DNA from: Verrucomicrobiota bacterium
Lineage (GTDB): Bacteria > Verrucomicrobiota > Verrucomicrobiia > Chthoniobacterales > UBA6821
Direction of reading: 5' to 3'
Length of the DNA: 64,000 nt
Assembly: GCA_021413925.1 (NCBI GenBank)
Contig: JAIOPL010000004.1
Coordinates: forward strand, 1 to 64,000
The position numbers were made by a program, and so were the translations under genes. The notes beneath the pieces are model-generated. The model ran no database searches. It was not told where the DNA came from and saw only the letters and a list, made by a program, of their open reading frames with translations. Numbering within the stretch: position 1 is the stretch's first letter; every line of letters starts with the position of its first letter. This document shows positions 50,643-58,473 of the stretch, in pieces.

Positions 50643-50666
50643 TTCCTCGTATCGGACTTCTCAAGT

Positions 50667-50699
50667 GAAACGCCGGGCAACTGCCAGGTGTTTCTTTTT
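50667..50699 (+). terminator. Rho-independent terminator after the HdeD-like gene
   Basis: Stem GAAACGCC/GGTGTTTC (one G-T pair) extended by GGC/GCC inside, followed by TTTTT. It starts 24 bases after the stop and separates the efflux block from the TPR-Exb operon. Confidence 0.9.
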
Positions 50700-50766
50700 G
50701 TATGTCCGGAGGTTCTGGAACCTGTCAATCCAATCATGAGTTCTTGTGAGAGGGACTTTTTAAGTA

Positions 50767-53700
50767 ATGTCTTTTTTTTTGGAATCTGTATTCTCACAGT
50801 TATTCCCCTTGATCATGACTGGATCCGAACAGAGCATCTTTCCTGTTAACAAGAAGTCCCCGTCCATGCCTGCAGGTGCGCTACGTAGTGCCGTGGTAGC
50901 TTTGGCATTGTTGACCCAGTCAATGTCACCGCTGCTTGCGGCCGATCCCGCGCCAAGTGGAGGCCCTGAGGAAATTTTTAATCAGGGTGGCACCGCCTTC
51001 CAGGCGGGTGATTTTGCAGGGGCCGCCAAGAAGTTCGAGGCCGTGCTCGCCATGGGACCCCAGGGGGAGAATCTCGAACTGGTGCTCTTCACCCTGGCGG
51101 CGACCTACTACAACCAGAAGAACCTTCCCAAGGCCGAGGAGTATTTCAAGCGGGTGGCCACCGAGTTTCCCAACGGCAAGCAGAAGAGCAAGGCGCTCAT
51201 CTCGCTTTCCCAGATCCAGACACAATCAGGCCGCAAGGAGGAGGCAGCCAAGTCCCTTGCGCAGGCCGCCGAGTGCGGTGGTGATCTAGGCGACCGTGCC
51301 AGATTCGCCCAAGTCTCACTGCTTATGGAGACAGGGAAAACGGACGACGCTGTCAAGGTGCTCAAAGGGCTGCTCGCCGGAGGCATCAAGGATGACCAGT
51401 CCGTGCAGGCGGCCATGGCGCTGACCGAGATCGAGGCCAAGAGGGGGAACCTGGACGACGCGCTCAAGCTGCTCGACCGGTTACAGGCGGCCAGTAACAT
51501 CGTCGACAATCCTCTCCAGCTCGACATGCTGGCCGTGAGGATCGGGGATGGTCTTCTTGCCAAGGGGGAACGCCAGAAAGCTCTGCGGATGTACGCCATC
51601 GTGCGGCCCGCGGACGTTGTGTCCTCCCTTCAGAGAGACCGGATCGCTGCGATGGAGAAGACGATCGCTGATAACAAGGCCAGCCTCCAGACCAACCCCA
51701 AGGCCTTCATGGAGGTCAACGCCGCCAACGCCCGCATCGCCAAGGACATGGAGGATCTCAAGAAGTCGCTGGATCAGTATGCCAAGCTCCCCGATATCAC
51801 CTCGGCGATCAGGTTGCGTCAGGCCAAGGCCTACGACGAACTCGACCTCAAATGGGAGACCATCCTCATCTGGGAGAATCTCCTCGGGGGAAAAGATCCC
51901 AAGATTCGTGAGGATGCCCTCTTCAGTATTGCCGCCGCATACTGCTCGCTCGTCAGGCCCGATGACGCAGTCCCTGCCCTCGACCGCTACTTGGGGGAAT
52001 ACCCCTCTGGAAAATACGCCCCCCAAGCGGGATTCCTGAAGGGGGCCGTTGCTCTGGAAGCCGGGGACTTTGCCAAGGCGGAGACGGTTTTCTCCACCGC
52101 CCTCAACAACGCGGCCAGTTCGCCTCTGGCCGGCGACATGCAGTTCCTGATGGGCAACACCCAGTTCGCCCAGGCTGCCGATCCTGAGAAAAGGGACAAA
52201 TACAAACAGGCCATCGAGAGTTACAAAAAATACCTCGCCAAATACCCCACCGGCAGGTTTGCCGAGGAGGCCGAATACCGCCTTCCGCTTTCTTACTTCA
52301 TGATCGGCGGTCAGGAGGGGTACACCAAGGCCCTCGAGGGATTCCAGGCCTTCGTCAAAAAGAACCCCCAGGCCCAGTTCGCCGGGGATTCCGAGTACCG
52401 CATCGCCCTCTGCTACAACGCCGCCGAGAAATACGACGAGGTCATCAAGCGCTGCGACGAATGGAGAGGGAAGCACGGAGGCGAACCCATGCAGGCCGAG
52501 GTCATGGCGCTCCAAGGGGACGCCTATGCGGCCAAGGAGATGGCGGCGGAATCCGCGGCTGCTTACCGGAAGTCCGTCGAGTTGGGTGAGTCCGAGGAAG
52601 TTCTCAAATACTCCCTCTTCGAGGCCAACAAGCAGTACCAGAAGCTCAACCGCTGGGACGAGATCGCCGACATGTTCAGCGTCTTTGCCTCGCGCCACCC
52701 GGATCATCCCGCGGCCACGGCCGCCGTCTACTGGGTCTCCAAGGCCAAGATCAAGGATGGCAAAGCTGAAGAGGCCAAGCAATACCTCGCCGAGACCATC
52801 CTCAAGACCATCAACGACCGCAGGAAGGACGCCGTCGAGCAACTCCTGTCCCAACTGGCCCAGACCTGCTCCAAGCGCATCCGTCCGCCGCTCATGGCCA
52901 GGGAATCCGGCTCGCCCTCACCTGTCGTGGCGGCTTCTTCAGCCTCCGCCACCAACGAGCCCGTGGCAGGCCAGCCCGAGGCTCCCCGCCCCACTCCCGC
53001 TCCGACGCCTCCTTACGACTCCGATGCCGACTTTGCCAAGTATCTCAATGAGACCAACGTGGCCGCTGTCGGGACCAACTCACTTGCCAAGGCTCGCCTC
53101 CGTTACGCCCAGGCAGAACTTGCCGGCTTCACCAAGCGCCAGGAGAGGCAGAAGGAGCTTATGGCCACCATCTACCGCGAGTTTCCAGCCGACCAGCTCA
53201 GCGCCATGCTCCTGGCGCAGTGCGGAGAAATCGCACTGGACAAGGGCGAGCTCGACAAGTCCGAGGCCTTTTACAGGGAACTCATGACCTCTTTCCCCAA
53301 GAGCGACCTGCTCGAATACGCCTACTGCGGCATGGGTGAGGTCTCTTTGGCGCGAAATCAACCCTCCGATGCGCTCCGATGGTTTGACGACGCCGTTGAG
53401 AAGGCGAACGCCGAAGCCAAGCTCGCCCAGGTAACTTACGGGAAGGGGAAGGCACAGTTCGGTTTGGGGAAATATGACGAAGCGAAAAAGACCTTTGAGT
53501 TAGTTGCCGGCAACAAGGAGTGGAGGGGAGAGATCACGGCTCGTGCGCTTCTCTCGCTCGGCGAGTTGGAGGAGAAGAGGGGTAACACCGCCGCCGCCAT
53601 CCAGTATTACCAGCGTGTCTTCGTTGCCTATCAGCGTTATCCCGACGTGGTGGTTTCCGCCTACCTCAAGTCAGCCGATGGCTTCATCAAGCTGGGCGAG

Positions 53701-53865
53701 CCCGCCAAGGCCGCCGCCCATCTCCGGGAAATGCTCTCCAAACCGCGCCTGGCCCAGATTCCGCGCGCCGAGGAGGCCCGCAAAAAACTCGAAGGACTTC
53801 CCGCCGCGCCACCTTCGGCCGAGTCCGCCGCACCGGCCGCCTCCCCAGCCCCCGCCACGCCATGA
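50767..53865 (+). CDS. Large exported TPR protein of the Exb operon
   Basis: 1032 residues if started at 50767; ATGs at 50815 and 50866 are alternatives, the last giving the neatest leader MPAGALRSAVVALALLTQSMSPLLAADP. AGAGGGA-like AGAGGGAC precedes 50767. The rest is TPR after TPR (AGDFAGAAKKFEAVL, KNLPKAEEYFKRVATEFP, KYKQAIESYKKYLAKYPTGRFAEEAEYRL, KYDEVIKRCDEWRGKHGGEP, GNTAAAIQYYQRVFVAYQRYP), interrupted by a Pro/Ala linker at about 715-760 and closed by a Pro/Ala tail. It resembles periplasmic YbgF/CpoB-type scaffolds, much enlarged. It overlaps the next gene by 4 bases. Confidence 0.88.
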   Translation: MSFFLESVFSQLFPLIMTGSEQSIFPVNKKSPSMPAGALRSAVVALALLTQSMSPLLAADPAPSGGPEEIFNQGGTAFQAGDFAGAAKKFEAVLAMGPQGENLELVLFTLAATYYNQKNLPKAEEYFKRVATEFPNGKQKSKALISLSQIQTQSGRKEEAAKSLAQAAECGGDLGDRARFAQVSLLMETGKTDDAVKVLKGLLAGGIKDDQSVQAAMALTEIEAKRGNLDDALKLLDRLQAASNIVDNPLQLDMLAVRIGDGLLAKGERQKALRMYAIVRPADVVSSLQRDRIAAMEKTIADNKASLQTNPKAFMEVNAANARIAKDMEDLKKSLDQYAKLPDITSAIRLRQAKAYDELDLKWETILIWENLLGGKDPKIREDALFSIAAAYCSLVRPDDAVPALDRYLGEYPSGKYAPQAGFLKGAVALEAGDFAKAETVFSTALNNAASSPLAGDMQFLMGNTQFAQAADPEKRDKYKQAIESYKKYLAKYPTGRFAEEAEYRLPLSYFMIGGQEGYTKALEGFQAFVKKNPQAQFAGDSEYRIALCYNAAEKYDEVIKRCDEWRGKHGGEPMQAEVMALQGDAYAAKEMAAESAAAYRKSVELGESEEVLKYSLFEANKQYQKLNRWDEIADMFSVFASRHPDHPAATAAVYWVSKAKIKDGKAEEAKQYLAETILKTINDRRKDAVEQLLSQLAQTCSKRIRPPLMARESGSPSPVVAASSASATNEPVAGQPEAPRPTPAPTPPYDSDADFAKYLNETNVAAVGTNSLAKARLRYAQAELAGFTKRQERQKELMATIYREFPADQLSAMLLAQCGEIALDKGELDKSEAFYRELMTSFPKSDLLEYAYCGMGEVSLARNQPSDALRWFDDAVEKANAEAKLAQVTYGKGKAQFGLGKYDEAKKTFELVAGNKEWRGEITARALLSLGELEEKRGNTAAAIQYYQRVFVAYQRYPDVVVSAYLKSADGFIKLGEPAKAAAHLREMLSKPRLAQIPRAEEARKKLEGLPAAPPSAESAAPAASPAPATP

Positions 53866-54719
53866 TGACCCCCACGACACCGCCGCGCCGCCGCATGCTT
53901 TCCCGGAGACTCACAGTTCTCTTCCTTCTCTTCCTCGGGACCGCATGCGACCTGCGGGCCGAGAATGTCACCACGACCGATGGTCAGGTCTACGCCAACA
54001 CCACCCTTCGGAAGGCAGGATCCAACATCATGATCCAGATCGTCATGCCGGGAGGGGGATCGATGGAGATGGGATTGCCCATTGCCAGGATTGCCAAGGT
54101 CTCCTTCGTCGAGCCACCCGAGCTTGCCAAGGCCTCCGATGCCGCCTCATCTGGAAACGCCCCCGAAGTTCTAGTACTGACCGAGAGCTATGTCGCTAAG
54201 CAGGGAGATCTCAAGGAAGTTCCCGGTTCCTGGTGGCCGCAGATGGCGCGACTCCGCCTCTTTGCTCTGGCCGCCTCCGCAAAGGATGCCGACGCGGCCG
54301 CGCTCGCCCGCGAGATCGGTGTGATTAACAATCCTGCCTCCGAATCTCTCGCGCGCGGGGGCGCACTCTTCGGACCACTGGCCTCCGGTGACACCGCGGC
54401 GGTCGTCGTCGGTGCCAAGGCGCTGCCCTCCATTGGAGGTGATGCCGGATCCTCCCTGGCCCAACTGGCCCTCGGACGTGCCCTCCTTGATAAGAAGGAT
54501 TTCGCGGCCGCCATCAGGGCATTCCTCACCATCAAAGTCTTCTATCCCTCACCAGCCATGCTCCAACCGGCGGCACTGCTCGGCGCCGTCAAAGCCTACG
54601 AGGGACTCAAGGACGCCAAGAGGGCCGCGCGTACCCTGACCGAAATCGTCGATAACTATCCTGCCTCCCCGCAGGCCTCCGATGCCAAGAAAATGATCGA
54701 GGCGCTACCCAAGCCCTAG
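53862..54719 (+). CDS. Exported TPR-like protein of the Exb operon
   Basis: 285 residues. A basic start MMTPTTPPRRRMLSRRLTVLFLLFLGTACDLRAE gives a signal peptide; GTAC could be a lipobox (Cys29) or cleavage follows RAE. Next is a short beta domain (VTTTDGQVYANTTLRKAGSNIMIQIVMPGGGSMEMGLPIARIAKVSFVEPP), then helical repeats ending DFAAAIRAFLTIKVFYPSP...DAKRAARTLTEIVDNYPASPQASDAKKMIEAL, i.e. TPR/YbgF-like. It begins within the stop of the large TPR gene and precedes exbB by 91 bases. Confidence 0.8.
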   Translation: MMTPTTPPRRRMLSRRLTVLFLLFLGTACDLRAENVTTTDGQVYANTTLRKAGSNIMIQIVMPGGGSMEMGLPIARIAKVSFVEPPELAKASDAASSGNAPEVLVLTESYVAKQGDLKEVPGSWWPQMARLRLFALAASAKDADAAALAREIGVINNPASESLARGGALFGPLASGDTAAVVVGAKALPSIGGDAGSSLAQLALGRALLDKKDFAAAIRAFLTIKVFYPSPAMLQPAALLGAVKAYEGLKDAKRAARTLTEIVDNYPASPQASDAKKMIEALPKP

Positions 54720-54810
54720 TCGGGAGCTGCAGCGGCTTTCTCTTTTTCTCTCCTGGTTAGTTTTCAAGTTGAAAGAAGCCCTTAGTTGAATACATTTCAT
54801 CAGATAGCAA

Positions 54811-55650
54811 ATGAACTCCCCACGTCGCCTCCTCAGCACCAGCCTCCTTATCGGATTTCTCTTCATCGGTTCAGCTGCCGTCATGGCTGAAGAAACCGGA
54901 AAGAAAGACCCCAAGGCCGCGCATTCCAAGACCCTGCTTGAGACCCTTGTTGAGGGGGGATGGGTCATGTTCCCGATCGGCATCATGTCGATCCTCACCG
55001 TCTATCTTGCCACGGACGGCGTCATGCGCACATCCATCAAGAAGACTGCTCCTCCGGCGTTTGAAGCCGAGGTAAAGCGTCTCTTTCAGGCCGGAGACTA
55101 CGTCGGAGCCTACACCTTCTGCCGCGACAACAAGTCTCCCCTGACGAATGTTCTCCGCGTCGGTATCTCGCTGCTTGGGGATGGAAAGACGATGGTTGAG
55201 GAGGGAATGGTTTCGGAAATGCACAAGGAGAGCGCCTCCTTCGGCACACAGATTAACTACCTCTCCGTCATCGGTGTTGTCACTCCGATGATAGGATTGC
55301 TTGGAACCGTCACTGGTATGATCAAGGCCTTCAGCACCTTGGGGAGTTCCGGCATCGGCGACCCTTCCAGCCTCTCGGGTGCCATTGGCGAGGTGCTGGT
55401 CGCCACGGCGAGCGGTCTCGTCATCGCGATTCCTGCCTTCGGCATGTTTTACTTCCTACGAAGCCGCTCCACCTCGGCGATGCATCACATCCAGGATGTG
55501 ATCAACCAACTCTTCCGCAAGATGCCCTATGATGTCCTTGCCGGCGTTCACATAAGCGGTGAGGAGATCTACGCGAACGTTCCCAACTGGATTGTCTACG
55601 AGGAGCCAGCAGCAGAAGAGCCGCCAGCAGAGGAGCCCGCCGCGGCCTAA
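54811..55650 (+). CDS. exbB: MotA/TolQ/ExbB proton channel protein
   Basis: 279 residues. A cleavable-looking N-terminal segment (SLLIGFLFIGSAAVMAEE) precedes the three-helix ExbB core: GGWVMFPIGIMSILTVYLATDG, then LSVIGVVTPMIGLLGTVTGMIKAF and EVLVATASGLVIAIPAFGMFYFL, the pair lining the ion path with its Thr. An acidic/Pro/Ala tail follows. It forms the pentameric stator that, with ExbD, turns ion flow into motion. Two ExbD genes follow directly. Confidence 0.94.
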   Translation: MNSPRRLLSTSLLIGFLFIGSAAVMAEETGKKDPKAAHSKTLLETLVEGGWVMFPIGIMSILTVYLATDGVMRTSIKKTAPPAFEAEVKRLFQAGDYVGAYTFCRDNKSPLTNVLRVGISLLGDGKTMVEEGMVSEMHKESASFGTQINYLSVIGVVTPMIGLLGTVTGMIKAFSTLGSSGIGDPSSLSGAIGEVLVATASGLVIAIPAFGMFYFLRSRSTSAMHHIQDVINQLFRKMPYDVLAGVHISGEEIYANVPNWIVYEEPAAEEPPAEEPAAA

Positions 55651-55671
55651 CCTCCCCGCCCTCATCACGCC

Positions 55672-56139
55672 ATGGCAGGAGGAGGAGGAGGACTAGAAAA
55701 GGGAGAGCCCGATTTCCAGATCGCGCCGATGGTGGATGTCCTGCTGGTCATCCTGATCTTCTTCATGGTCATCACCTCCGCCCAGGTTCTCAACATCGAC
55801 AAGACCATCAAGCTCCCCCTTGCTCCCGAGGCCGCCAAAAAGGACGATTCCCGTTCCGAGGCCGTGGTGAATGTCCGTTGGGATCCTGCGACCAGTCGGG
55901 CTAGTTTCAACTTCCAGGACCACATCTACTCAAGGGCATCTGAGTTCGTGGAACCTCTTAAGGCGGCCAAACTTCTGGGTGAGCAGATGGCGGCCTCCAA
56001 GCCGGGCCAGAACCCGGAGTTTCGCCTTGTCATCCGAGGTGACCGCGATGTTCCGGCTCTTTTTGTTTCCCAGGCCATGAACTCGGCCGCCGAGGCCGGG
56101 ATCTCCGACATCTCCTTCTCCTCGGTCAATCATGACTGA
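55672..56139 (+). CDS. exbD: ExbD/TolR protein, copy 1
   Basis: 155 residues. A short Gly-rich cytoplasmic start (MAGGGGGLEKGEPDFQIAPM) leads into one transmembrane helix VDVLLVILIFFMVITSA with the essential Asp (PMVDVLL). The periplasmic domain ends RLVIRGDRDVPALFVSQAMNSAAEAGISDISFSSV, the ExbD/TolR dimer fold. It is the plug partner of ExbB. It follows exbB by 21 bases. Confidence 0.93.
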   Translation: MAGGGGGLEKGEPDFQIAPMVDVLLVILIFFMVITSAQVLNIDKTIKLPLAPEAAKKDDSRSEAVVNVRWDPATSRASFNFQDHIYSRASEFVEPLKAAKLLGEQMAASKPGQNPEFRLVIRGDRDVPALFVSQAMNSAAEAGISDISFSSVNHD

Positions 56140-56172
56140 GAAAACTCAGTTCGATCAAAAGCTCCGCCACCT

Positions 56173-56613
56173 ATGAAGCCCTTTGTGAACGAAGATGACG
56201 GGACCATGGGCTTCCAGATCGCGCCGATGGTGGATGTCGTCTTCGTCATCATGCTCTTCTTTATGGTCATGGCGGGGGCGGTGAAGGTGGAGAATGAACT
56301 CACCACCCGGCTTCCCGGCAGTGCAGAGAACTCCCCTGCAACCGAGTTCAATGACGAGACCATCATCGGCATCACTGACGAGGGGGAAGTCTCCCTCAAT
56401 GATGAACCCTTCGACACACCGACCAGCGCTGATCTCCCGCAGTTGCGCGCCACGCTGATGCGTCTGAAGGAAAACGCCGATAACGCCAAGCAACCCGCGG
56501 TCGTCACCATCAACAGTGATGCGCACGCCAAGTACAGCCGCACCATCGACGTCCTCAATGCCCTCGCGGCGGCCAAGATCACCAATGTGACCTTCAATGT
56601 CAACGAGGAGTGA
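56173..56613 (+). CDS. exbD: ExbD/TolR protein, copy 2
   Basis: 146 residues. The transmembrane helix with Asp is APMVDVVFVIMLFFMVMAGAV, and the periplasmic part ends VVTINSDAHAKYSRTIDVLNALAAAKITNVTFNV. Similar in plan to copy 1 (both have FQIAPMVDV) but well diverged. Two ExbD proteins may form a heterodimer within one ExbB pentamer. It starts 33 bases after copy 1. Confidence 0.93.
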   Translation: MKPFVNEDDGTMGFQIAPMVDVVFVIMLFFMVMAGAVKVENELTTRLPGSAENSPATEFNDETIIGITDEGEVSLNDEPFDTPTSADLPQLRATLMRLKENADNAKQPAVVTINSDAHAKYSRTIDVLNALAAAKITNVTFNVNEE

Positions 56614-56727
56614 GTTCATAGGCAAAATCAAGAACCTTAGACCTCTGACCTATTCTCGATTCCCTTCACCCTTTCACTTTCTTACCCTCCTCCCTCAGGT
56701 TTCAGCCTTACAGCCTTATAATTCCCC

Positions 56728-58107
56728 ATGTCCGCCACACCCGACCATTCCACATCCGCCTCCGAACCCGTTCCTGCGGCCGAGGATGCAGCGACGGCGG
56801 AGCATGTCGTGCCCGAAGTCCCTGAAACCACCCACCACTCTGTCCACCCTGCCTCCGCTGTGGATCTCCACGTCGCCCCCTCCGAGCCTCATCCCCTGAA
56901 GCGTAACCTCTGGCAGCGCTGGATGGCCTGGAGCGGAAGCTTCTTTGTCCTCAGTCTCCTCGTGCACGTCCTGCTGATTGGCGGAGCGACCGTCTTGGTT
57001 GTCCAGGTCGTGGCGGGGCGGAAGGAGAAGCTCAAGTTCACCGCGCCTCCGCCGAGTTCGGCCGGTCCCAAGACCGTCGAGCACAAGGTCAAGCTCTCCA
57101 AGGCCACGGCCAGCGCCCCGAGTGTTTCCAAGCGCATCACTTCCACGGCGGCCAATGCCTCCATAGCACTCCCCGCCATGGAGATGAGCTCCAGCTCCGG
57201 TCCCGATGTGATGGCCTCCGTCATGAGCGGTCTGGGAAGCGGGAGCCTTGGAGTGGGGGCCCCCGCTGGGGGTGCCGCGGGCGGCGGCGCCTCGATGCCT
57301 GGCGGAGGACTCACCGCTTTCGGTTATAAGGGAGCCGTCAACGTCCCCGGTCTCAAGGTCAATCTCTACGATCTCAAGCAGACACCCAATGGTACCAAAA
57401 CCGATATCGGTGAGGACTTTGACAAAGGGGCTACCGCCGAGGCGCTCTGTGATTATAAGATCATCAGAGACGTCATCGCCTTCATGGAGTCAAAATGGGA
57501 TCCGAAGCTGCTTGAGAAGAAGTATTACAAGGCCAAGGACACCATCACGGCTTACCAGTTTTGGATACCTCAAGCATTGACACAAACCGAGGTTCTCAAG
57601 GCATTCGGTGCCGACACCAGCGTCAAGCCCGGCTTCTTCATCGTTCATTACACCGGAAAGGTCACCGCACCCAGGGATGGTGAGTTCGTGTTTGTACAGA
57701 CCGGAGGTGGTAACTATTTTTATGCAATGCGTTTTGATGAGAAGAATATCTTCATTAATGCACCAACTCAAAATGTAAAAAATCTCATCTCCGTCGGGCA
57801 AACAATCCTGCCCATCAAGGTTACTGCCGGTCGCACCTATTCCATCGATCTCCTGGTGATGTTTAAAGCTGCCCGTGGCGAATACCGTCAGTTTTTACAG
57901 ATCGTGCAAAAAACCCCGGCTAAAACCTATCCGCCCGATCCCGTAATGGGTATACAGCGCCCCATCTTTCAGGTCAAGAGTGGCCTGCCGTTCCCTGAGT
58001 TTGTTAAGGTCGAGCCGAAGGATCCCCTTAACGCTCGCAATTGGAGGATTGTGAACCCAAAAGGACCCAAAGTGGAGGAGGCCATAGTCTTCCCCGCGCA
58101 AAAGTAG
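56728..58107 (+). CDS. TonB-position membrane protein with PA14-like domain
   Basis: 459 residues. Layout: cytoplasmic Pro/Glu/Ala/His-rich start (1-60), a transmembrane helix (70-94, SFFVLSLLVHVLLIGGATVLVVQVV), a basic/Pro/Ser periplasmic linker, a Gly-rich hinge (about 170-200), then a beta-rich domain. FFIVHYTGKVTAPRDGEFVFVQTGGGNYFYAMRFDEKNIFIN fits the PA14 pattern of carbohydrate- or wall-binding modules. The layout is TonB/TolA-like but a PA14-like module stands where the TonB C-terminal domain would be. It is last in the TPR-TPR-exbB-exbD-exbD operon. No TonB CTD or outer-membrane receptor is coded nearby. Confidence 0.75.
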   Translation: MSATPDHSTSASEPVPAAEDAATAEHVVPEVPETTHHSVHPASAVDLHVAPSEPHPLKRNLWQRWMAWSGSFFVLSLLVHVLLIGGATVLVVQVVAGRKEKLKFTAPPPSSAGPKTVEHKVKLSKATASAPSVSKRITSTAANASIALPAMEMSSSSGPDVMASVMSGLGSGSLGVGAPAGGAAGGGASMPGGGLTAFGYKGAVNVPGLKVNLYDLKQTPNGTKTDIGEDFDKGATAEALCDYKIIRDVIAFMESKWDPKLLEKKYYKAKDTITAYQFWIPQALTQTEVLKAFGADTSVKPGFFIVHYTGKVTAPRDGEFVFVQTGGGNYFYAMRFDEKNIFINAPTQNVKNLISVGQTILPIKVTAGRTYSIDLLVMFKAARGEYRQFLQIVQKTPAKTYPPDPVMGIQRPIFQVKSGLPFPEFVKVEPKDPLNARNWRIVNPKGPKVEEAIVFPAQK

Positions 58108-58473
58108 CTAAGCGATCAGTCAAGGAATCCGGAACTCAGAGATCCCTTGGTTGTCGGGAGGGCATTGTCGAGGGATGGCGATAGGCTATATAGTAGGTAG
58201 CCCCCTGATGCGAGCGAGCTCGTGAAAAAGTTTCGACCATGGTGAGAGAAGGGCTATTTCAACTCAGCGGAAATAGCAAAGGCTCATCTGAGGTTGACAC
58301 TCGGAGTGGTAGAGCGAGCAGGCAGGGGCTCTGCATTAGTGTTCTTTTGAGGTCTTGGGCTCTTGCTTCCTCTCCCGCGCGCCTCCTGGTCAACCAACTG
58401 CGCTGGCGGCTGTCTCTATGTTGAGCGCTTTCTTGACGATGGAGGGTCTCTTTCCCTAGCGTTTCAGACTCGG
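58108..58473. other. Gene-free stretch with several small hairpins
   Basis: 366 bases without a supportable gene. Visible structures: GCTATTTC/GAAATAGC (58253-58260 and 58270-58277), CGAGCTCG near 58215, GGCTA/TAGCC around 58187-58205, and CAAGGAATC/GATCCCTTG just after the previous stop. None has a T-run. The promoter of the BamD-like gene must lie here, but no pair of boxes is convincing. Confidence 0.4.

Follow-up and report, generated by a model that had tools for sequence, protein, structure and literature searches.

A PA14-fold output domain on a predicted motor-coupled transducer of a Verrucomicrobiota bacterium, and the exchange of output domains among its relatives

What does a motor of the ExbB-ExbD type drive when its operon closes with a protein that has the topology of TonB and ends in another domain? 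The question is raised by a locus in the window analysed here (the whole stretch of 64,000 nucleotides from contig JAIOPL010000004.1), which belongs to a 2.4 Mb draft genome of a freshwater Verrucomicrobiota bacterium whose close relatives are mainly Spartobacteria/Chthoniobacterales MAGs. The initial annotation had placed six open reading frames at 50767-58107 and read them as an energised envelope machine with an unusual output protein. The six ORFs were found there, close-packed and all in the forward direction. The first encodes a long periplasmic TPR protein (TPR1, 50767-53865; Pfam TPR_12, 1.4e-24), which is also the conserved gene 1 of the operon in relatives. As called it has 1032 aa, though its true start is probably Met34 (50866) because the alignment of homologues begins at about residue 31-35. 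Its N-terminus is signal-peptide-like, and no lipobox was found in 71 of 73 orthologues. The start of the second gene (TPR2, 53862-54719) overlaps the stop codon of TPR1, and its product carries TPR-type helices behind a small beta domain at the N-terminus (residues 31-82). The AlphaFold2 model of TPR2 had a mean pLDDT of 71.9 and its nearest solved fold was BamD 3qky (Foldseek, E 4.8e-4), the fold search giving matches to generic TPR/BamD only. Pfam recognised TPR domains in both proteins; of the two large periplasmic TPR proteins described earlier, TPR1 deserves the adjective while TPR2 has just 285 aa.

The motor genes come next, namely an ExbB/TolQ-type subunit of 279 aa (54811-55650; MotA_ExbB, 1.8e-24), ExbD1 of 155 aa (55672-56139; ExbD, 3.1e-14) and ExbD2 of 146 aa (56173-56613; ExbD, 8.1e-20). 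ExbD1 and ExbD2 belonged to distinct families, each keeping its position in relatives, which bears out the reading of one ExbB with two different ExbDs. The alignment of ExbB to TolQ 8odt took in LGTV and VATASGL, the two pore motifs, and the transmembrane Asp of ExbD1 matched that of TolR in LLDVLLV. For ExbD2, Asp21 was invariant among orthologues and the profile matched ExbD/TolR proteins in the PDB. These alignments, which contain the hallmarks of ExbBD/TolQR systems (the pore threonines of ExbB and the transmembrane Asp of both ExbDs), show the motor residues to be intact in all three subunits. The ExbD and TPR2 genes of relatives were located by tblastn and stop-to-stop searches, and the gene order of the operon was kept in relatives from several families, indicating that it is not due to chance. 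The gene-neighbourhood survey suggested with the initial annotation therefore found synteny conserved in related genomes.

The last gene (56728-58107) encodes a protein of 459 aa with TonB topology, as judged from the ORF, the AlphaFold2 model, the fold match and the orthologues. It has a single membrane helix, which is N-terminal (56944-57012) and contains S76-LLV-H80, the SxxxH motor-docking motif of TonB and TolA; the His was present in all 64 aligned transducers regardless of their output domain. The AlphaFold2 model, for which the input was an alignment of nine sequences, consisted of a helix at residues 61-98 and a beta-rich domain at 199-459, joined by a linker at about 96-194 that was disordered (pLDDT <50), with a mean pLDDT of 58.8 overall and values mostly of 70-90 within the beta-rich domain. 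The linker (57013-57336) carries a conserved EHKV...KRI.ST......LP segment. The best Foldseek matches of the output domain (residues 204-459; 57337-58104) were PA14 sugar-binding domains (E 9.4e-6), and VIA-align against 6m8m gave a Z of 11.1 with 159 aligned residues and an rmsd of 3.2, spanning residues 205-459. The Pfam PA14 match (PF07691) was weak on this protein (E 0.07, 13.4 bits, below the gathering cut-off of 24 bits) and reached 19.1 bits in a relative. In the model the fold of the head is PA14. A TonB C-terminal domain was absent both by Pfam TonB_C and in the AlphaFold2 model, and as the output domain it was ruled out. The structure prediction thus agrees with the earlier suggestion that a PA14-like domain replaces the TonB C-terminal domain, although its extent, given before as residues 280-400, had to be corrected to about 204-459.

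How far the head resembles a lectin is a separate matter. PA14 lectin domains such as those of the MpAFP/RTX adhesin (6m8m), Epa and Flo5 share their fold with the C-terminal half of the transducer at about 11-13% identity. In the search of PDB sequences with the output-domain profile, the lectins Epa6 (E 0.004), Epa9 and Flo were near the top, which gives the PA14 assignment support from sequence that is independent of the model. The profile alignment paired an Asp-Asp of the family with the Asp-Asp of the lectins, the pair that forms the calcium site in Flo and Epa proteins. Of 19 PA14 heads compared at this position, 13 kept the pair, 2 had Asp-Asn instead and 4 had lost it; the head of this operon reads GGN at the site, and the pair was also lost in three relatives of the same genus. 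Unlike the PA14 lectins, this head has lost Asp-Asp, has additional helices inserted behind its first strand (about residues 229-265) and is predicted to be tethered to a motor. A calcium-dependent lectin function is unsupported for this particular head because of the lost pair. The glycan binding proposed in the initial annotation therefore keeps the backing of a PA14-lectin fold and of the Asp-Asp in most relatives, and loses that of the residues in the protein itself.

The operon as a whole can be placed in a known class. A 'TPR-TolQ-TolR-TolR-transducer' class of PVC bacteria was described in 2025 (Mol Biol Evol, PMC12204202), in which vWA heads on the same gene order were presented as motor-coupled transducers. 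As far as the transducer section of that paper describes it, the class has the same TPR gene, a tolQ-like gene, two different tolR-like genes and then the transducer, with the same SxxxH-type anchor helix and a long linker; the C-terminal domain is vWA there and of PA14 fold here. An HMM built on the linker of vWA-type transducers alone, with helix and head left out, matched the PA14 transducer of the operon at E 3.8e-10. Of the 13 PA14-type proteins found in the same search, 12 had E values of 1.8e-12 to 6e-7. Those of some toroid-type proteins were 5.6e-5 to 5e-3, and the first unrelated ORFs came in near 0.4; three PA14 proteins of family f15 (L115, L117 and L124) scored too weakly for the HMM alone to link them. 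By these alignments the anchor and linker are homologous to those of the published vWA transducers, and by comparison with the class as set out in that section the operon belongs to it, every part matching except the head. The transducer section of PMC12204202, and its text under the terms searched, mention neither PA14 or toroid heads nor an exchange of heads, and our literature search found nothing joining a PA14 domain with ExbD in the sense of a transducer. What is new here, relative to that account, is the PA14 head (and the toroid) on a motor-transducer class already known since 2025.

The relatives revealed that the head is the variable part. The search for ExbD2 orthologues covered 237 genomes from the class (181 with E <= 1e-12), and 80 further verrucomicrobial neighbourhoods of the operon were retrieved. 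The same transmembrane/linker module was found to bear vWA, PA14 or a squalene-cyclase-like alpha/alpha toroid, the last identified by Pfam SQHop_cyclase_C on two examples (8e-7 and 3e-8). A motor tree was made from concatenated ExbB-ExbD1-ExbD2 of 78 loci, at which the heads were vWA (40), PA14 (14), toroid (9), PA14 plus toroid (2) or unclassified (13); the 13 loci at which no transducer could be classified carried no label in the three-state count and were not scored as losses. One large clade was vWA-only among its classified heads, the other mixed all three, and at least seven head changes were counted among the three states. For example, a vWA locus (L063) and a PA14 locus (L064) from two species of one genus grouped as sisters in the motor tree with an SH-aLRT of 97. 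Their DNA identity over the motor genes was about 71%, and their transducers aligned just as far as the junction preceding the head; the identity of their TPR1 proteins was only 42%, and the two loci may not be strict orthologues. At L115 and L124, in two genomes, one ExbB-ExbD-ExbD motor is followed in tandem by a toroid transducer and a PA14 transducer, in that order. Judged from sequence, the output domain has been exchanged repeatedly among at least three unrelated folds. Some further variants were seen. Toroid heads followed ExbD2 at eleven loci and occurred in two families (f34 and f15), the tandem-transducer locus of genome G206 is also contained in L148, and an extra ExbD2 copy at two loci (L118 and L123) gave three ExbDs with one ExbB.

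The sole TonB-receptor plug of the genome lies on another contig, 0.4 kb from its own TonB, and about 1 kb beyond there is an ExbB; none of the three TonB_C proteins found by the genome search is at this locus. Both OmpA/Pal-type domains of the genome are on other contigs; none was found on the contig of the operon or among its Pfam-scanned genes. The earlier statement that no receptor or Pal lies nearby fits these positions, and the view that the machine does not act on a TonB receptor is supported. The locus resembles TonB-ExbBD in motor type, transducer topology and SxxxH motif. It is different from that system in having two ExbDs, TPR partners and no TonB C-terminal domain, and in that the only receptor plug of the genome adjoins another TonB. 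With Tol-Pal it shares a TolQ/TolR-like motor and CpoB/BamD-like TPR proteins, whereas the operon is without Pal or the TolA C-terminal domain and is accessory, with a patchy occurrence in the genus. Two other motor-related loci were noticed in the same genome: on one contig (C2, L049:8393-10486) an ExbB-type channel lies behind DUF2341 and a laminin-G/ConA-like lectin domain in a fused protein of 697 aa, and on another (C9, L047:10623-17337) an ExbB-ExbD motor locus with an 882 aa TPR protein is followed by a trypsin/PDZ protease gene.

From the evidence of sequence and model we consider the operon likely to specify a proton-driven motor of the envelope whose force transducer is modular, with a PA14 head that grips a target. 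ExbB would form the ring, with both ExbDs in its pore and extending into the periplasm. The PA14 protein would be held by its own helix, His80 docking on the side of the ring as in TonB and TolA, and the disordered linker of about 100 residues would span the periplasm. The target that the head grips would lie at the wall, at the outer membrane or within the periplasm and would be pulled or released by the motor; TPR1 and TPR2 may serve as periplasmic scaffolds bringing the target. Docking and force transfer are proposed because of the homology to known transducers, and we infer complex formation, force transfer via H80 docking, pulling by the head and the scaffold role of the TPR proteins; the target could be glycan, wall or protein. 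A point against this motor reading is the patchy occurrence of the operon: of 15 further genomes from the genus, in part drafts, 8 gave a match in the transducer search.

Other readings have to be weighed against this proposed force-transducing motor. In one, a polysaccharide in or beneath the outer membrane is bound by the PA14 head and then hauled inward by the motor, a step in selfish glycan uptake. The nearest folds are indeed sugar-bound PA14 domains, most of the heads examined keep Asp-Asp, and Verrucomicrobiota accumulate glycans in the periplasm (PMC13174399). However, the pair is lost in this protein and in three from congeners, the genes adjoining the operon included no recognised glycoside hydrolase or SusCD-like gene, and the vWA and toroid heads on the same module are not lectins, so that we regard this as unlikely. 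Much less probable still is a Tol-Pal-type machine that maintains the outer membrane and is tied to BamD and LptE, a tie that the initial annotation had drawn from the downstream genes. The BamD-like gene and lptE directly follow the operon here and in three other genomes (G012, G002 and G009), and the TPR2 helices are similar to BamD and CpoB. The whole operon, however, is held in the stretch from HdeD to the BamD-like gene (50643-58362, forward strand), and in G003, G006 and G010 a gap of about 0.1-0.45 kb, without the operon, separates the RND-HdeD genes from the BamD-like gene, lptE and rsmI. Of these genomes, G003 and G006 have the operon at another site and G010 has no detectable transducer. 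In the 80 other neighbourhoods neither a BamD-like gene nor LptE was detected close to the operon, and several genomes of the genus are without the operon. Adjacency thus depends on where the operon was inserted; the functional link was rejected on the empty site, and the upkeep reading is largely refuted by it. In two further genomes (G004 and G008; L163 and L164) about 2.3 kb of other sequence lies between HdeD and the BamD-like gene, and the site is possibly an insertion hot spot.

AglRQS, the gliding motor of Myxococcus, is composed of one TolQ-type and two TolR-type subunits and works with TPR proteins. The same composition here, together with the gliding suggested for the vWA class in the 2025 account (PMC12204202), would fit a surface-motility motor whose head grips the wall or an adhesin. 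The NCBIfam matches of a neighbouring TPR protein to GltE and GltC were weak, driven by the TPRs and far below cut-off, no other Glt component was recognised, and a PA14 transducer is not known as a part of Agl-Glt; a gliding function is accordingly improbable in our estimate. Equally doubtful is a reading in which the PA14 protein, though anchored, serves as adhesin or sensor and merely adjoins a motor. Proteins of the same PA14 subfamily do occur without a motor, some with a signal peptide only and some with an anchor lacking the His. Against this stand the position of the gene directly after ExbD2, the invariant His, and an anchor and linker homologous to those of motor transducers bearing other heads.

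The PA14 subfamily of the head was found in 76 of 388 genomes of the phylum. The proteins sampled included secreted forms (signal peptide plus PA14) and, in other families and classes, orphan SxxxH forms. In Akkermansia-type genomes an anchored PA14 protein has a helix without the docking His (for example L180, G122:C1:1495429-1496235, and others in L176-L186), and two motor loci (L144, G122:C1, 642-649 kb; and L145) read ExbB-ExbD-ExbD-TPR(1101 aa)-TPR(347 aa) with no transducer recognised, indicating that PA14 heads and the motor layout can occur separately, a second point against the motor reading. A tie to the Akkermansia mucin utilisation loci was dropped, as no transducer was found at the G122 locus and nothing places it in MUL1. 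Eight genomes of families f70 and f63, which belong to other classes of the phylum, had at least 7 paralogues of the subfamily each, and a sampled one (L197) has the SxxxH anchor; these are possibly many-transducer systems. The distribution suggests that the wider subfamily may be a pool whose heads could go into the making of transducers.

Transducers driven by the proton motive force have so far been described with a TonB/TolA domain at their end or, after the 2025 account, with vWA. Tentatively, and with more doubt than confidence, the operon may represent a general-purpose proton-driven platform with swappable heads, sometimes two per motor, of which the PA14 version would grip envelope or imported polysaccharide. 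Head-swapped relatives and H80 mutants, being open to comparison, would give a direct handle on function. If true, the PA14 and toroid heads, their exchange and the tandem pairs would mean that force transduction across the bacterial envelope is a plug-in system.
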